From assembly GCF_030122845.1 (NCBI RefSeq), contig NZ_CP126084.1, positions 4,922,501 to 4,986,500 of the forward strand: DNA of 64,000 nt. Direction: 5' to 3'. Under the pieces are notes generated by a model, which searched no databases, had not been told where the DNA came from, and worked only from the letters and a program-made list of their open reading frames with translations. Position 1 is the stretch's first letter; each line of letters opens with the position of its first letter. This document shows positions 17,842 to 29,638 of the stretch, one piece after another. The DNA comes from Paenibacillus woosongensis. GTDB lineage: Bacteria > Bacillota > Bacilli > Paenibacillales > Paenibacillaceae. A program made the translations under genes and the position numbers.

Positions 17842-17874
17842 TTAAATAATTATATTTAGAAGGAGGTGGGTAGA

Positions 17875-18030
17875 GTGGATCGCAAGCTCGTATGGAATCG
17901 AATTAGCCAATTGCCTATGGCGTTATTTGGCATTTTTTATGGTGTGGCTGTCAACGGGATTAGTCTGTCCATTTTTAGCTATTCGATATCCAAATTACAC
18001 TTGCGAAATGCCGCTCCTACCTTAACCTAA
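17875..18030 (+). CDS. 51-residue small membrane protein
   Basis: A short gene of unknown function with complete expression signals: a promoter with 17-base spacing, an AGAAGGAGGTGGG ribosome binding site before the GTG, and a strong terminator 18 bases after the stop. The product begins MDRKLVWNRISQL, continues with a hydrophobic stretch of about 25 residues (PMALFGIFYGVAVNGISLSIF) and ends in a polar tail with KLHLRN. One membrane helix with a basic N-terminus predicts an inside N-terminus. It sits alone between the divergent cystine transporter operon and an ABC-F gene. I recognise no family. Confidence 0.7.
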   Translation: MDRKLVWNRISQLPMALFGIFYGVAVNGISLSIFSYSISKLHLRNAAPTLT

Positions 18031-18047
18031 CGGAACGTTACGTGAAG

Positions 18048-18076
18048 AAGGCTGCAGAATTTCTGCAGCCTTTTTT
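18048..18076 (+). terminator. Terminator of the 51-residue gene
   Basis: AAGGCTGCAGAA pairs with TTCTGCAGCCTT, followed by TTTTTT. In RNA the innermost pairs open to form the loop. Confidence 0.88.
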
Positions 18077-18135
18077 CGTCTCCAAGGTAGCTTTGCTTCG
18101 CTGGAAGCGGCATGAGCCAAAGGAGATTATAAAGA

Positions 18136-20139
18136 ATGATTATCCAATGTATAAATGTCCAAAAATATTACGGTGCCGAGCTGGTGCTCAGCGATGTTAC
18201 CTTTGAAATCAAATCCGGCGAGAAGGTAGGCTTGATCGGCCGCAACGGAAGCGGCAAGACGACGCTGATGCGTCTTTTATCCGGCAGTGAAACGCCCGAT
18301 CATGGCTCTATCGCCATCCGCAAGGACACTACGTTGGGCGTTCTCGCCCAGATTCCTGACTATGCCAGCCATATGACGGTATACGATGTGCTGCAATCCG
18401 CCTTTGAGCCTTTGCTCGTGATCCATGCGCAAATGAGGCAGCTGGAAGCAGAAATGTCCGCGTTATCCTCGTCAGGCATGAACACCTCTAACATGGACCG
18501 CCTGCTCCAGCAGTATGGAACCTTGCAGGAAGCCTTTGAGCGTAACGGCGGCTTTGAAATGGAGGCGTCCATCGAGCGGGTGACTCATGGGCTCGGTATC
18601 TCTGCCAGTTCCTACAAGCAGGCCTTCAGCTCCTTATCCGGCGGAGAGAAGACGAAGATCGGTCTAGCCGTCATTTTGCTGCAGCAGCCGGATGTTCTTC
18701 TGCTTGACGAGCCGACCAATCATTTGGACCTGGCTGCCGTCCATTGGCTAGAGGAATTTCTGCATGCTTTTAAAGGTACCGTTACCGTGATCTCCCATGA
18801 CCGCTACTTTCTGGACAGGGTAGCCGATAAAATCATCGAAATCGAGGACGGTGAAGCATTTACCTACCCCTGCAGCTATAGCGAATACAAAAATGAGAAA
18901 GAACGCAGGCTGCTCCAGCAATTTGCCAACTATCAAGAACAGCAGAAGAAAATTAAGAAAATGCAGGAGGCCATCAAGCAGCTGATTGAGTGGGGAAACC
19001 GTTCCAACCCGCCGAACGCGGGATTCCACCGCAGAGCAGCCTCCATGCAAAAGGCGCTGGACCGCATGGTCAAGCTGAAAAGGCCCGTGCTCGAACGAAA
19101 GCGCATCGACCTGCAGCTGTCGCAGTCTGACCGTTCCGGCAAAGATGTCATCGTCCTGCGGGAAGCAGGTAAAAGCCTCGGGGAACGCACGCTGTACCGC
19201 GGTATAAATCATACGCTTCGCTACGGAGAGAACGCTGCCTTAATCGGCGGCAACGGTGCTGGAAAAACGACGCTCATGAAGTGCATTCTAGGCATGGAAC
19301 CCGTTCAGGAGGGGGAGATTCGGCTCGGCTCGCGGGTGGAAACCGGCTATCTTGCACAAGAATCGGCACCCAAGGACGACCCCTGCACGGTACTGGAGTA
19401 TTTTCGGAATGGACTCGGCATGGAAGCCGGGGAAGCCCGTAATCAGCTTGCGCGCTTCCTCTTTTACGGAAGTGACGTTTTCAAGAAGGTTCATAGTCTG
19501 TCAGGCGGTGAATGGACGAGGCTGAGATTGGCTATGCTGATGTACCGCAAACCGAATTTGCTGCTCCTGGATGAACCGACCAACCATCTGGACATCGACT
19601 CCCGGGAAGCCCTGGAGGACGCGCTCGAGGAATATCCCGGCTCTGTGCTCGTCATCTCCCATGACCGATATTTTATCAACAAAATCGCAGACCAGATATG
19701 GGAGCTTGCTGGGGGCAAGATGTTCATTACCGAGGGCGGCTATGCGGACTATCAGGCTGAGCTGAATAAGCGGAAGCCTGCGTCACACGGACAGTCCGCG
19801 CAGGCATACGAATTCAACGCGGCGAGAGATTCCGCTCTCCCCAAATTGCCCGCTCCGGAAGCTTCCCCTAACGGAAAAATGCGAAATAAAGCAGAGCAGA
19901 CCTCGGGGCAAGAGCACGATCATTCAGCCTCTTCCGCCGCTAACCCTGCCACGCTTCGCAAAATGGAACAGGAGATATCCTCCCTGGAGCAGAGGATTGC
20001 ACAGATCGATGAGGCTATGCTTGATCCGGGCATCGGGAGCGACGCAGATAAGCTGAACGTTCTGCTGGAGGAGCGTGTTGAAGTTCAGCGGAATCTTGAT
20101 CCGCTCATTGATAAATATATTTCCCTTTTAGAAAAGTGA
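18136..20139 (+). CDS. ABC-F family ATPase (ribosome-associated)
   Basis: A 667-residue cytoplasmic protein with two ABC domains and no membrane part. Walker A motifs are GRNGSGKTT (about 35-43) and GGNGAGKTT. The signatures are LSGGEKTKIGL and LSGGEWTRLRL. Both Walker B segments carry LLLDEPTNHLD. The linker between domains (about 245-325) is charged and helical, as in translation factors and ribosome-protection proteins that reach into the E site. A second coiled coil fills the last 80 residues, as in YdiF- or Uup-like members. Whether it confers antibiotic tolerance or is housekeeping cannot be told. AAAGGAG precedes the ATG. The alkA-like gene follows closely. Confidence 0.93.
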   Translation: MIIQCINVQKYYGAELVLSDVTFEIKSGEKVGLIGRNGSGKTTLMRLLSGSETPDHGSIAIRKDTTLGVLAQIPDYASHMTVYDVLQSAFEPLLVIHAQMRQLEAEMSALSSSGMNTSNMDRLLQQYGTLQEAFERNGGFEMEASIERVTHGLGISASSYKQAFSSLSGGEKTKIGLAVILLQQPDVLLLDEPTNHLDLAAVHWLEEFLHAFKGTVTVISHDRYFLDRVADKIIEIEDGEAFTYPCSYSEYKNEKERRLLQQFANYQEQQKKIKKMQEAIKQLIEWGNRSNPPNAGFHRRAASMQKALDRMVKLKRPVLERKRIDLQLSQSDRSGKDVIVLREAGKSLGERTLYRGINHTLRYGENAALIGGNGAGKTTLMKCILGMEPVQEGEIRLGSRVETGYLAQESAPKDDPCTVLEYFRNGLGMEAGEARNQLARFLFYGSDVFKKVHSLSGGEWTRLRLAMLMYRKPNLLLLDEPTNHLDIDSREALEDALEEYPGSVLVISHDRYFINKIADQIWELAGGKMFITEGGYADYQAELNKRKPASHGQSAQAYEFNAARDSALPKLPAPEASPNGKMRNKAEQTSGQEHDHSASSAANPATLRKMEQEISSLEQRIAQIDEAMLDPGIGSDADKLNVLLEERVEVQRNLDPLIDKYISLLEK

Positions 20140-25618: not shown

Positions 25619-25785
25619 TTCACATCATCCCCCGTTTCGCGAATATGGAACGCAAATAACCGTGGCCAGCGGCACACGGTCAGATACAGCGAAATAGGGG
25701 TACAACCATAAGCAGAAACAGACTCAGACGCCAAAATGAGCGCTGGTTCAGCTTTCCTTATGATTGTATCTGTCTTTTTGAGTAC

Positions 25786-25913
25786 AAAAAAAGAAGACCC
25801 TAAGTCGACACACGTATCCCTGACCGGCTCCCGATGTCTCGAGAGCGCCGCTTGCCTGCTGACAAGTTGTCTTGTGGGAACGTGTTCTTACTCCATCGTC
25901 TAAGGGTCCTCCT
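25786..25913 (-). promoter_or_regulatory. Attenuator leader of the ABC-F gene
   Basis: On the minus strand the 5' arm ACCCTTAGACGA pairs with TCGACTTAGGGT (10 of 12), and AACACGTTCCC pairs with GGGATACGTGT with one bulge. A run of seven T follows (25786-25792), so the full structure is a terminator. The ribosome binding site AGGAGG (25908-25913) and a two-codon reading frame (ATG GAG TAA) lie in the 5' arm. A small hairpin ACAAG-ACAA-CTTGT lies inside. A ribosome held on the short frame would block the stem and allow read-through. The 167 bases between this leader and the gene show no other clear signal. Confidence 0.75.
25888..25896 (-). CDS. Two-codon leader reading frame (Met-Glu-stop)
   Basis: ATG GAG TAA follows AGGAGG after 11 bases, in the 5' arm of the attenuator. 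It is too short to encode a functional peptide. Its likely role is to place a ribosome on the leader RNA so that inhibited initiation or termination prevents formation of the terminator. The spacing is slightly long, and no conservation data are available here. Confidence 0.5.
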   Translation of the reverse strand: ME

Positions 25914-25950
25914 GAATAGTTAAAATAATGGGTTGCTTCTTACTCTTTTA

Positions 25951-25979
25951 TTATTACCATGATTTCCAGCCGAGAGCAA
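25951..25979 (-). promoter_or_regulatory. Promoter of the ABC-F leader transcript
   Basis: On the minus strand TTGCTC (25974-25979) and TAATAA (25951-25956) are spaced by 17 bases. Transcription would start near 25944, about 30 bases before the AGGAGG of the leader frame. Confidence 0.6.
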
Positions 25980-26021: not shown

Positions 26022-27914
26022 TTACCCGACTTCGAGATCAAAGCCGCCTTTGGAGAATTGGCTGTTGTACAGATCAGCGTAGAATCCGCCTTGTGCCAGC
26101 AGTTCTTCATGGGTACCCTGCTCGATGACCGAACCGTGATTCATGACTAGAATCAAGTCCGCATCCTTGATCGTCGACAAGCGGTGCGCAATGACAAAGC
26201 TCGTGCGCCCTTTCATCAGCTCATTCATCGCCTTCTGGATATAAATTTCCGTCCGCGTATCCACGCTGCTCGTCGCTTCATCCAGGATAAGAATCGCCGG
26301 ATCGGCGAGAACAGCCCGAGCGATGGTCAGAAGCTGCTTCTGGCCTTGTGAGATGTTGGAGGCTTCTTCGTTCAGGATCGTATCATACCCGTCCGGCAGC
26401 GTGCGGATGAAATGATCGGCATGCGCCGTCTTCGCGGCCTGGATGATCTCCTCCTCCGTCGCTCCTTCACGCCCATAGGCAATATTATCGCGAATCGTAC
26501 CGTTGAACAGCCAGGTATCCTGAAGCACCATACCGAATAGACTGCGCAGGTTCCCCCGGCTCATCTCCGTAATATCGACCCCGTCGATTGTAATCGAGCC
26601 GCCGTTCAATTCATAGAAACGCATCAGCAGATTGATCAGCGTCGTCTTCCCGGCGCCCGTTGGGCCGACGATGGCGATCGTCTGTCCTTTCGAGGCATGA
26701 ATATTCATATCGTCGATCAGTATCGCCTGATCCTGGTAGCCAAAACGGACATGATTGAAGGAGACCTCTCCCTTCGGCTCTTCAATTTGAACAGGGTGAG
26801 CCGGATCTGGAACTTCCTCGGTTTCGTCCAGCACTTCGAATACACGCTCCGAGGAAGCGACGGTGGATTGAATGATATTGGCAATGTTAGCCGTTTGCGA
26901 AATCGGCATGGACAGCTGTCTCGTATACTGGATGAATGCCTGAATGTCACCGATCTTGATTTTTCCCTTCAGGACCAGAACGCCGCCTACCACGGCAACA
27001 AGCACATAACCGATATTGCCGATGAAGCTCATGATTGGCATGATCACGCCAGAAATGAATTGCGCCTTCCAGCCCGCCTCATACAGGCGTTCGTTGATCT
27101 CATCAAATTGCTGCAGCGACTTCTGTTCGCGGCCGAACACTTTGACCACCTTATGGCCCGTGTACATTTCCTCCACATGACCGTTCAGCATGCCAAGCTC
27201 CTTCTGCTGGCGGACAAACTGGCGCTGGGAACGCTTGGCGATCGAAGTGATCGCCATGATGCTTAGCGGGATCGTCAATACCGCGATCAACGTCATTAAC
27301 GGACTGATCGAGAGCATCATCACGATAACCCCGATAATGGTCAGAACCGATGAAATCAGCTGGGTCATGCTCTGCTGCAGGGTGGAGCTGATATTGTCCA
27401 TATCATTCGTCACCCGGCTGAGAATTTCCCCATGCGTTCTGGCGTCATAATATTTGAGCGGCAGACGCGACAGCTTGTCGTTCACTTGCTTCCGCAAATT
27501 GTAGACCGTCTTCTGCGAGACATCCGCCATTAAATACTGCTGGAAGTAGCTGAATAGAGCACTCAATAAGTACAGTCCAAGCAAAGTAAGAATAATTCTT
27601 CCGATGGCATCGAAGTCGATAGCCGCCCCCGGAATTCCCTTCATTTTCCCCATGATTCCTTCGAATAGTATGGTCGTCGCATCCCCCATAACCCTCGGGC
27701 TAAGAATGGCGAATACCGTACTGAGGACAGCCATGAGGACCACGGAACCAATCTGCAGCCGGAACGGACGCATATAAGTTATAAGGCGTCTGAGCGTACC
27801 TTTGAAATCCTTTGCCTTTTCGGCCGGTACGCCCATTCCGGGCGGGCCGCCATGCCCCCGGCCTCCGCCGAAGCCGCCTGGTCTTTTTGCGCTTTGTTGG
27901 TGACTCTGACTCAT
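26022..27914 (-). CDS. Heterodimeric ABC exporter subunit with intact catalytic site
   Basis: A 630-residue half-transporter with a Gly-rich N-terminus (PGGFGGGRGHGGPPGMG), six membrane helices (about 50-340) and a C-terminal ATPase. Walker A is GPTGAGKTT, the signature is ISQGQKQ (a weakened LSGGQ), Walker B is ILILDEATSSVD with the catalytic Glu, and the H-loop is IAHRLSTI. Its partner, encoded upstream, is degenerate at these points. The pair therefore has one consensus and one degenerate ATP site, as in LmrCD, BmrCD and TM287/288. The ATG overlaps the partner stop by ATGA. Substrates are probably amphipathic drugs or lipids. Confidence 0.93.
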   Translation of the reverse strand: MSQSHQQSAKRPGGFGGGRGHGGPPGMGVPAEKAKDFKGTLRRLITYMRPFRLQIGSVVLMAVLSTVFAILSPRVMGDATTILFEGIMGKMKGIPGAAIDFDAIGRIILTLLGLYLLSALFSYFQQYLMADVSQKTVYNLRKQVNDKLSRLPLKYYDARTHGEILSRVTNDMDNISSTLQQSMTQLISSVLTIIGVIVMMLSISPLMTLIAVLTIPLSIMAITSIAKRSQRQFVRQQKELGMLNGHVEEMYTGHKVVKVFGREQKSLQQFDEINERLYEAGWKAQFISGVIMPIMSFIGNIGYVLVAVVGGVLVLKGKIKIGDIQAFIQYTRQLSMPISQTANIANIIQSTVASSERVFEVLDETEEVPDPAHPVQIEEPKGEVSFNHVRFGYQDQAILIDDMNIHASKGQTIAIVGPTGAGKTTLINLLMRFYELNGGSITIDGVDITEMSRGNLRSLFGMVLQDTWLFNGTIRDNIAYGREGATEEEIIQAAKTAHADHFIRTLPDGYDTILNEEASNISQGQKQLLTIARAVLADPAILILDEATSSVDTRTEIYIQKAMNELMKGRTSFVIAHRLSTIKDADLILVMNHGSVIEQGTHEELLAQGGFYADLYNSQFSKGGFDLEVG

Positions 27915-29638
27915 GCGATCTCCTCCTCTGACAGCTGGGACAAGACGATTTCCCGATACACCTCGCAGGTCTCCATCAATTCCTGATGCTTGCCGATCCC
28001 CGCGATTCGGCTCTCGTCCATCACGATGATCTGATCGGCATCCAGTACGGTACTTACCCGCTGAGCGACGATAATGACGGTGGATTCCCCGGTCTCCTGC
28101 TTGAGCGCTGCGCGCAGCTTGGAATCCGTCTTGAAGTCAAGCGCCGAGAAGCTGTCGTCGAAAATATATATCTCCGCCTGGCGTACCAATGCCCGGGCAA
28201 TGGAGAGACGCTGCTTCTGACCGCCGGAGACGTTGGAGCCGCCCTGCGCAATTGGGGAGTCATACCCATGCTCCATCTTAGAGATGAAGTCGGCCGCTTG
28301 GGCAATTTCCGCCGCATGCCGCACCTCCTCATCGCTGGCATCCTCTTTCCCGTATCGGATATTGTCGCTGATCGTGCCTGTGAACAGTACGGCTTTCTGC
28401 GGAACGAAGCCGATCTTCGAGCGCAGCTCATGCTGGGACATGTCCCTGACATCGGTGCCGTTCACCAGTACCCGGCCTTCCTCCACGTCATAAAACCTCG
28501 GAATGAGATTAATCAGCGTGGATTTGCCGGAGCCTGTACCGCCGATGATCGCCGTTACCTCGCCGGGACGGGCCGCAAAGCTGATATCCTGGATTGCCGG
28601 CTTCTCGGCGCCAGGGTAGCTAAACGACACGTTCTGGAACTCGACATGGCCTTTTTGCCCATTCGCGGGCGCCGGCGCATCCGTATCCTTGATGACCGGG
28701 GCCATATCCAGCACCTCATTGATCCGGACAGCCGAAGCCGACGCGCGCGGAATCATCACGAACATCATCGACACCATTACAAGCGAGAACATAATTTGCA
28801 TCGCATACTGCAGGAACGCCATCAGATCCCCAACCTGCATCATTTCCGCGTTGATGCGCAGCCCGCCGAACCAAATAATTGCTACCGACGACAGGTTCAT
28901 CACCAGCATCATGACCGGCATCATGAAAGCCATAATTTTGTTTACTTTAATCGAGGTATCCGTCAAGTCATAGTTCGCTTGGTCAAAGCGCATTTTCTCA
29001 TGCTGAACCCGGTTAAAGGAACGGATGACGCGAATTCCCGTCAGATTCTCCCGCATAACCAGATTCAACTTGTCGATCTTCTTCTGGATCGCCTTGAACA
29101 GCGGAATGCCCTTCCGGGCAATTAGAAAAATAGCCAGCGCCAGCACAGGCAGAACTACCACGAAAATGAGCGACAGCGTAGCGTCCTTCGAGACGGCCAT
29201 AATGATTCCGCCTATACAGAGCATCGGCGCCATGACCATCATCCGCAAAATCATGATCAGTACCTGCTGGACTTGCGTAATGTCGTTCGTCGTACGCGTA
29301 ATCAGCGAAGCCGTGCCGAGCTTGTCGAATTCCTCCAGAGAGAAATTCTCGACATGGTTAAAAACCTTCGCCCGCAGCAGCTTACCGAATCCTGTCGCCG
29401 CCCGGGAGGCGAAATAGCTGGCTGCGATGGAGCAGAGCATTCCTCCAAGCGCTACCAGCAGCATAAAGGAGCCAACCTTCCATATATATGGTGTATCGCC
29501 GTTGACTACGCCAATATCCACGATATCCGCCATCAGCGTCGGCAGGTAAAGCTCGGATAGCGATTGAAAAAACACCAGCACGAGCACGGCCAGAATCGGC
29601 AGCCGGAACGGCTTCAAAAACCGAAAAAGCTTAGTCAT
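27911..29638 (-). CDS. Heterodimeric ABC exporter subunit with degenerate catalytic site
   Basis: A 575-residue half-transporter. Six membrane helices fill residues 12-310 and the ATPase follows with Walker A GGTGSGKST and signature VSGGQKQRLSIARA. Walker B reads IYIFDDSFSALD, with Asp where the catalytic Glu should be, and the switch His is replaced by Gln (IVAQRVSTV). These changes define the non-hydrolytic site contributed by this subunit. It overlaps marR and the second exporter gene by four bases each, so the three genes form one coupled operon under MarR control. Confidence 0.93.
   Translation of the reverse strand: MTKLFRFLKPFRLPILAVLVLVFFQSLSELYLPTLMADIVDIGVVNGDTPYIWKVGSFMLLVALGGMLCSIAASYFASRAATGFGKLLRAKVFNHVENFSLEEFDKLGTASLITRTTNDITQVQQVLIMILRMMVMAPMLCIGGIIMAVSKDATLSLIFVVVLPVLALAIFLIARKGIPLFKAIQKKIDKLNLVMRENLTGIRVIRSFNRVQHEKMRFDQANYDLTDTSIKVNKIMAFMMPVMMLVMNLSSVAIIWFGGLRINAEMMQVGDLMAFLQYAMQIMFSLVMVSMMFVMIPRASASAVRINEVLDMAPVIKDTDAPAPANGQKGHVEFQNVSFSYPGAEKPAIQDISFAARPGEVTAIIGGTGSGKSTLINLIPRFYDVEEGRVLVNGTDVRDMSQHELRSKIGFVPQKAVLFTGTISDNIRYGKEDASDEEVRHAAEIAQAADFISKMEHGYDSPIAQGGSNVSGGQKQRLSIARALVRQAEIYIFDDSFSALDFKTDSKLRAALKQETGESTVIIVAQRVSTVLDADQIIVMDESRIAGIGKHQELMETCEVYREIVLSQLSEEEIA

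Follow-up and report, generated by a model that had tools for sequence, protein, structure and literature searches.

Ahead of an ABC-F gene on the minus strand of a 64,000-nt stretch of Paenibacillus woosongensis DNA (contig NZ_CP126084.1, positions 4,922,501 to 4,986,500; hereafter the window, from whose first letter all positions are counted) lies a structured leader with an upstream open reading frame (uORF) of only two codons, ATG-GAG-TAA. We conclude that this leader is very probably a ribosome-mediated attenuator of the ABC-F gene. The gene directly 3′ of it encodes a predicted drug-protective ABC-F protein of the ribosomal-protection type; a short uORF with its own Shine–Dalgarno sequence (SD), predicted to be translated, is kept among homologues; intrinsic terminators are predicted both behind the hairpin that bears the frame and at a second, distal hairpin; and, in folding calculations on the window and its clade, an alternative antiterminator fold appears once the uORF is occupied. 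The parts of the leader, their conservation and their alternative folds are evident from the sequence and from computation.

Architecture of the leader

The leader and its gene comprise the following elements.

25979–25974 and 25956–25951, minus strand: −35 and −10 hexamers of a putative promoter, TTGCTC-17-TAATAA, with TGG just 5′ of the −10 (read directly)
25913–25908, minus strand: uORF SD, AGGAGG, within the 5′ arm of helix P1 (read directly, and fold)
25912–25895, minus strand: P1 5′ arm (fold; pair counts)
25896–25888, minus strand: two-codon uORF, ATG-GAG-TAA, Met-Glu-stop (read directly; frame conserved)
25885–25876, minus strand: 5′ strand of helix P2, ACACGTTCCC, 8 nt past the start codon, pairing with 25820–25810
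25866–25851, minus strand: P3 hairpin, CTTGTC...GGCAAG (fold; pair counts)
25846–25827, minus strand: P4 hairpin (fold; changes on both sides in all five helix pairs)
25826–25810, minus strand: conserved core, CGGTCAGGGATACGTGT, containing the P2 3′ strand in the off state and, over 25826–25813, the antiterminator strand in the on state
25809–25792, minus strand: P1 3′ arm (fold; 25809–25798 pairs with 25699–25689 in the ribosome-on fold)
25792–25786, minus strand: run of seven U (U7) after P1, putative proximal terminator of the window's clade (sequence and fold)
25768–25701, minus strand: long spacer hairpin joining the two halves of the leader (fold)
25700–25689, minus strand: anti-SD strand, CCCCTATTTCGC, predicted to pair with the ABC-F SD strand in the off state and with the P1 3′ arm in the on state
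25682–25653, minus strand: distal hairpin (25682–25671/25667–25657), overlapping TTATTTG; candidate weak terminator or pause site in the window
25640–25629, minus strand: ABC-F SD strand, GGGGG at 25633–25629, sequestered by 25700–25689 in the fold
25618–23765, minus strand: ABC-F ribosomal protection-like gene, 617 amino acids (NF000355, 477.9 bits against a cut-off of 380), starting 278 nt after the uORF ATG

In the predicted drug-free fold, P1 is a helix of 16 base pairs, and P2 encloses the P3 and P4 hairpins. The first-pass annotation, made from the letters alone, had all its coordinates right (promoter hexamers, 17-nt spacer, AGGAGG, ATG-GAG-TAA and seven T), and had drawn the ribosome-binding site and the frame wholly inside the 5′ arm of a long stem ending in seven U. 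P1 does include the SD and the greater part of the start codon, but GAG-TAA is unpaired, in a bulge between P1 and P2; the seven U do follow P1, with two of them pulled into the stem when the nascent RNA is folded. The P1 base stem alone is worth −16.1 kcal/mol. The minimum free energy (MFE) of the 160-nt leader is −54.6, whereas its shuffles average −38.83 (z = −4.13; none of 200 as good), and the 351-nt leader departs from its shuffles to a similar degree (z = −4.60; none of 100 as good).

No Rfam 15 family reached its gathering threshold in the window. A weak match to rli32 (27 versus 100 bits) on the spacer and distal hairpin was treated as chance; rli32 is described, in the part of a review consulted, as a stand-alone secreted non-coding RNA. 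Searching the genome, a single contig of 5,289,572 bases, for second copies of the core (for example in rRNA) with up to three mismatches returned only the leader itself, and a search of plasmids gave no match to the 328-nt leader.

Conservation of the uORF and its helices

An ABC-F homologue at E ≤ 1e-160 was present in 189 of the 394 genomes of the family, and 121 upstream regions were read. Those passed over were paralogues of the window's own genome (L002–L010), 20 distant loci with at most 31% identity (L032–L051), genomes fetched twice (L019, L020 and L022) and loci with only N upstream (L017 and L021). After one region (L029, the second contig of the strain of L028) had been set aside, 120 were tested, and a rule-based search matched a tiny frame in 118: 58 of two codons, 37 of three, 2 of five, 13 of eight and 8 of nine. 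The two-codon frames encode Met-Lys (46), Met-Glu (8), Met-Asn (3) or Met-Val (1), and all but one of the 58 end in TAA. The two regions without a match were L030 and L147, the latter of which visibly contains ATG-AAG-TAA and failed at the 3′ anchor. In L030, from Alicyclobacillus acidiphilus, a possible six-codon frame, ATGAAGACCACCCGTTTGTAA, stands 5′ of the ABC-F gene, with a GGAGG ending 17 nt before it; it was not counted.

Because the search was restricted to second codons seen in the first-read leaders and to a limited number of codons, this count was not blind. Cleaner tests are the spacing between start codon and P2 in aligned leaders and the frames of loci found by a covariance model. 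Of the 118 leaders, 57 entered alignment A1 (picked by eye), 28 entered A2 and 33, including those with eight or nine codons, entered neither, so that the spacing result covers the aligned leaders only. Throughout A1 the start codons share one alignment column, with P2 starting 8 nt further on in 55 leaders and 7 nt further on in 2, irrespective of whether the frame has two codons (25 leaders) or three (32 leaders). GGAGG and ATACGT are both invariant across A1, and ATG-[AG]AG-TAA is present in 28/28 leaders of A2. Of 674 other ATGs in the same leaders, 70 are followed by a stop within three codons, compared with 95 of the 118 uORFs, which had been selected for shortness. Conservation of the short frame among orthologues, on which the first-pass annotation had staked its reading, is thus borne out by the rule-based count, the A1 spacing and the model-found loci described below. 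Of the block from ribosome-binding site to TAA, it is the GGAGG and the position of the start that are conserved; second codon, stop and length vary.

Among the 118 leaders the second codon is AAG in 64 and AAA in 1, and the long open frames of the window contain 357 AAG and 262 AAA. We considered selection for lysine at the peptide level and rejected it, as this skew points to RNA selection or shared ancestry. Frames of nine codons occur in eight loci of one genus (L131, L133, L140–L142, L145, L148 and L154), seven of them ending in Leu-Ile; this genus has a U-run near P1 plus a distal terminator. Eight-codon frames, such as MDTHDCSL, occur in L098, L101 and others. Frames of this length extend into P2, and their mode of sensing may be different.

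From the unedited MAFFT alignment RNAalifold recovered no more than 7 pairs, in our opinion because P3 and P4 vary in length. Averaged single-sequence pair probabilities were used instead; since this choice leans towards the pairing that is observed, slid and shuffled controls were run. Alignment cells in which both partners of a pair had changed numbered 154 in A1 (76.5 ± 7.9 in shuffles, reached by none of 500; at most 78 with slid structures) and 41 in A2 (21.2 in shuffles, again none of 500). At 20 model-found loci they numbered 118 against 42.5 (none of 500 shuffles; slid structures at most 40). Nineteen of these 20 rows lie outside the alignment behind the model, although their own alignment was fitted to it; the remaining contig, that of L204, also supplied L031 to the model.

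The covariance model, built from 57 leaders, finds one copy in this genome. At E ≤ 0.001 it hit 77 of the family's 394 genomes, many of which had contributed its own rows. Among 344 genomes drawn from the order it hit 57 at E ≤ 0.01, including 15 from two other families, several of these 15 being weak hits; among 398 drawn from the phylum it hit 3 at E ≤ 0.001, each of them in the same family. These figures are lower bounds for the genomes drawn, given the stricter filters and a model that covers one leader class. The 20 loci were taken from other families or from family genomes absent from the 189 with homologues. An ABC-F homologue of 46–59% identity follows on the same strand in 18 of them (three aligned in two pieces), 96–276 nt from the element in 17 and about 930 nt away in L192; in L205 the contig ends. 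In L191 (G512, around 320–700) an intact-looking leader precedes a short, decayed ABC-F piece, an orphan switch. All 20 loci have a short frame, of two codons in 13, three in 5 and five in 2. Those of two codons include ATG-ATA-TGA and ATG-ATT-TGA, from another family. On sequence grounds, this change of both second codon and stop type with length retained is the strongest indication that selection acts on a reading frame rather than on a base pattern.

Predicted refolding around an occupied uORF

A distal T-run behind a stable hairpin is present in 117 of the 118 leaders under a permissive rule that counts TTATTTG. A T-run within 45 nt of the 3′ anchor is found in 25, including all six of the window's clade; in the other 93, no U-run was detected just 3′ of the frame-bearing hairpin, and there the terminator is likely to be the distal hairpin. 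The distal U-run is longer in most relatives than in the window, and the window's clade seems to have shifted its main terminator onto the uORF hairpin, with the distal one weakened. A TTNTTT pause motif has been described for NusG in vmlR, an ABC-F gene of Bacillus subtilis, in the part of that work consulted; by analogy, transcription may pause at the TTATTT of the window, which fits this motif.

A ribosome on the uORF was simulated by a 31-nt mask, and the nascent or full leader was refolded (L143 was skipped; ABC-F starts were assigned by rule, and that of L027 looks wrong). In the masked nascent RNA of the window, 25826–25813 pairs with 25688–25677, 25809–25798 with 25699–25689, and 25856–25847 with 25673–25664. 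These pairings dismantle the distal hairpin, whose probability falls from 0.96 to 0.00, and engage the anti-SD strand. Across the six leaders of the clade the hairpin probability falls from 0.89–0.98 to 0.00–0.14, and under two control masks it stays at or above 0.95. Under the mask the ABC-F SD also becomes cheaper to open, by a mean of 2.54 kcal/mol and by more than 1 kcal/mol in 92 of 117 leaders; downstream control masks at three sites gave 0.25, 0.02 and 0.11 kcal/mol and reached that margin in 19, 6 and 13 of the 117. After removal of identical elements the response is seen in 87 of 111 leaders, with 18, 6 and 13 for the controls. In the window the cost falls from 11.07 to 6.56 kcal/mol.

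The core is complementary both to the 5′ strand of P2 and to the distal region. Of the 57 leaders, 56 passed the anchor and 50 were distinct; in 47 of these 50, the core pairs with its own distal region better than with shuffles that kept base composition only (mean −17.9 versus −12.0). We explain the conservation of the core by this two-partner role, which weakens the case for a ligand-binding RNA.

On the basis of these folds, we propose the following mechanism. Without drug, ribosomes would translate the two codons and depart quickly, P1 and P2 would form, and transcription would end at U7 behind P1 or at the distal hairpin; in any read-through RNA the ABC-F SD would be hidden in the stem 25700–25689/25640–25629. 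If formation of the first peptide bonds were blocked by a drug (a lincosamide, pleuromutilin or streptogramin A, to judge from vmlR and from cplR of Clostridioides difficile), the ribosome would be held at the uORF start codon. Because P2 starts 8 nt on and the front edge of a ribosome lies at about +16, the position of the vmlR toeprint in the part of PMC9226507 consulted, the held ribosome would sit over the 5′ arm of P1 and the beginning of the P2 5′ strand. With P1 blocked, the proximal terminator would fail; the freed core and P1 3′ arm would pair with the region before and inside the distal hairpin, so that the distal terminator would fail as well, and the anti-SD strand would be drawn away from the ABC-F SD. 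Of these steps, we infer leader transcription, uORF translation, termination and the response to drug. The ribosome-mediated attenuation proposed in the first-pass annotation is thus supported by these folds, in a fuller form: that account lacked the distal hairpin, the antiterminator and the stem that hides the ABC-F SD.

Several results weigh against this interpretation or limit its reach. The evidence for induction consists of sequence and folding, and the leaders are related to one another, so that the counts are not independent. The promoter has the sequence and spacing first reported and is almost unchanged in the closest relatives, but as read it matches the consensus poorly, at three of six positions per hexamer; a −10 shifted by one base (AATAAT, spacer 18) matches at five of six. 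A consensus scanner did not flag this promoter or, on the minus strand, either the P1-U7 terminator, whose loop exceeds the scanner's length rule, or the distal hairpin. Covariation, which the first-pass annotation had suggested looking for in the stems, exceeds shuffles when both-side changes are counted, but not by other measures: further pair types show no excess in A1 (217 of 500 shuffles as high), and in A2 neither these (362 of 500) nor the number of pairs with both-side changes (235 of 500) does. A loss of more than 0.3 in the probability of the distal hairpin is confined to 37 of 117 leaders (9 and 3 under the control masks), and in the thermodynamic model alone antitermination at this hairpin is not general: it is clear for the clade and partial elsewhere. 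The SD becomes harder to open by more than 1 kcal/mol under the mask in 6 of the 117; in L018, of the same clade as the window, the cost rises from 6.74 to 8.70. In one full-length masked fold of the window the SD stem persists in the MFE structure, and with slightly different ends it is absent. Finally, when cores were swapped between leaders, a leader's own core was better in just 26 of 50 (p = 0.82); swapped cores pair equally well because the core hardly varies.

What the uORF senses is a separate matter. Two codons would be enough for a start-codon stall and too few to place a peptide in the exit tunnel. Sensing by initiation rather than by a nascent peptide, raised in the first-pass annotation, is favoured, because the position of the start is fixed while second codon, stop and length vary, and because published ABC-F uORFs stall at their start. 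We tentatively go further, to a possibility to which we give rather less than even weight: a peptide-free sensor, in which a two-codon frame with a loosely constrained second codon and stop would hold a ribosome at an AUG whose distance to the following helix is fixed at 8 nt, and so report arrest at the first peptide bond (or, more boldly, minigene termination or drop-off) whatever its cause, with one ribosome in the window's clade lifting two terminators and uncovering a hidden SD.

The same switch could instead respond to slow termination or peptidyl-tRNA drop-off at a two-codon minigene and so report release, recycling or general translation stress. The prevalence of two-codon frames, the commonest class (58 of 118, 57 of them ending in TAA), would suit such a signal. 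A sensor of termination sits less well with a stop that varies in position (2, 3, 5, 8 or 9 codons) and in type (TAA, TAG or TGA), with a start held 7–8 nt before P2 in the aligned leaders, and with the start-codon stalls described in excerpts of the literature on ABC-F uORFs, and we regard this signal as unlikely.

Still less probable is a riboswitch, in which a small molecule (the drug, perhaps) would bind a conserved branched domain and the frame would be incidental. Strong sequence conservation, exemplified by the invariant ATACGT of the 57 leaders, and a branched fold with two hairpins within P2 would both be expected of one; yet the complementarity between core and distal region (47 of 50) offers a reason for conservation that needs no ligand, the frame is kept despite changes of codon and stop, and the window has no Rfam family at threshold. 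Least credible of all is an unregulated intergenic terminator insulating the ABC-F gene from exporter genes that end on the same strand at 26022, just upstream. A promoter-like site sits between those genes and the leader, upstream neighbourhoods appear by eye to vary among relatives when the leader stays constant, and a conserved SD and frame, an SD-hiding stem and a response to the mask would be purposeless in an insulator.

The ABC-F locus and known attenuators

By its ABC-F protein, the window is closest among named relatives to entries of Paenibacillus humicus and P. woosongensis (97% identity), followed by P. ihumii and P. fonticola (about 86–87%). Among the 25 best NCBIfam models for the protein, no named ABC-F resistance class passed its cut-off (Sal 403.5/725, Vga 351.5/725, CplR 282.7/780, Msr 274.7/680, Lsa 240.2/750 and OptrA 271.9/1450 bits). 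The nearest solved relative by sequence is 7p48 (titled ABC-F type ribosomal protection protein; E = 1.3e-87), with 7nhl, 6ha8 and 8buu also close; we take 7p48 to be Sal(B) and 6ha8 to be VmlR. Entry 8BUU is named in an excerpt of the VmlR2 paper.

Directly upstream of the leader, 26022–29638 on the minus strand holds two MsbA-like ABC exporter genes with scores under the model cut-offs, and the 0.5 kb preceding them resembles, by eye, the end of a MarR-type regulator gene. A second ABC-F gene lies at 18136–20139 on the plus strand (NF000355, 492.5 bits). In the region 17866–18206 (plus strand) it is preceded by a 54-codon frame with a strong SD (17866–18030) and by a hairpin, GGCTGCAGAATTTCTGCAGCC, followed by six T, possibly another, different attenuator.

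The comparisons below draw on excerpts of the cited papers. In vmlR and in two ARE5 ABC-F genes studied in Streptomyces, ribosomes stall at the uORF start, and lincosamides, pleuromutilins and streptogramin A cause such stalling in the ABC-F uORFs studied. The closest parallel is vmlR (uORF Met-Ile-Asn; PMC9226507), compared here by description rather than by sequence: it too is an ABC-F gene with a tiny uORF in the bulge of the first stem-loop, a uORF stem that opposes an antiterminator, an intrinsic terminator and an SD-hiding stem, and its induction is attributed to arrested initiating ribosomes. Its uORF has three codons rather than two, and its terminator is a separate hairpin, whereas the uORF hairpin of the window itself also ends in U7. 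In cplR of C. difficile (uORF Met-Arg-Ile; PMC10201436), a short uORF likewise lies in the 5′ hairpin, and a terminator and a hidden ABC-F SD work together; there the terminator hairpin itself hides the SD, a task that a separate outer stem performs in the window's predicted fold. The same source predicts uORFs of MK[L/Q] for VmlR2 and MAGN for LsaA, so that this group has three or four codons. The Listeria rli53-lmo0919 leader (PMC8079631), again compared by description only, is also a resistance-gene attenuator; it responds to lincomycin, and a tiny ORF, of three amino acids unlike that of the window, overlaps its anti-antiterminator. Two-codon frames that affect a downstream gene from the mRNA leader are described for the axe-txe and LEE1 minigenes (PMC8708949). 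Unlike the proposed switch, these act on downstream translation or mRNA protection, and the excerpted description mentions neither drug sensing nor a terminator switch.

At two codons, as in 58 of the 118 leaders, the uORF of the window is therefore shorter than the published examples, which have at least three, a difference that is not a formal criterion. Excerpts of the open-licence literature on ABC-F attenuation, Paenibacillus and two-codon frames described neither this element nor any two-codon uORF ahead of an ABC-F gene. A transcriptome study of P. riograndensis compared long 5′ untranslated regions with Rfam and, in the part consulted, names no such element. Two-codon frames may also have been passed over by an ABC-F uORF-finding tool, perhaps because its default minimum is nine nucleotides, stated as three codons; the excerpt leaves unstated whether the stop is included. 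As far as our searches reach, two features are new: the two-codon frame and, within the window's clade, the presence of U7 at the end of the very hairpin that bears the frame.

The vmlR work, in which two variants functioned at least as well as the native frame and a third was weaker, leaves open to what extent the uORF has to encode a particular peptide (PMC9226507, in the part consulted). A natural family of two-codon frames, whose sole other residue is Lys, Glu, Asn, Val or Ile, makes this question directly testable. Our analysis also yields a covariance model for a regulatory RNA that reaches no Rfam 15 threshold in the window and that, at 18 of the 20 loci checked, is followed by an ABC-F gene. 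If the proposed mechanism is correct, it would reveal how many members of this group keep their ABC-F genes silent until they are needed. The type of switch is one already known from these systems; the form found in the window is unusually small and recurs in many relatives.
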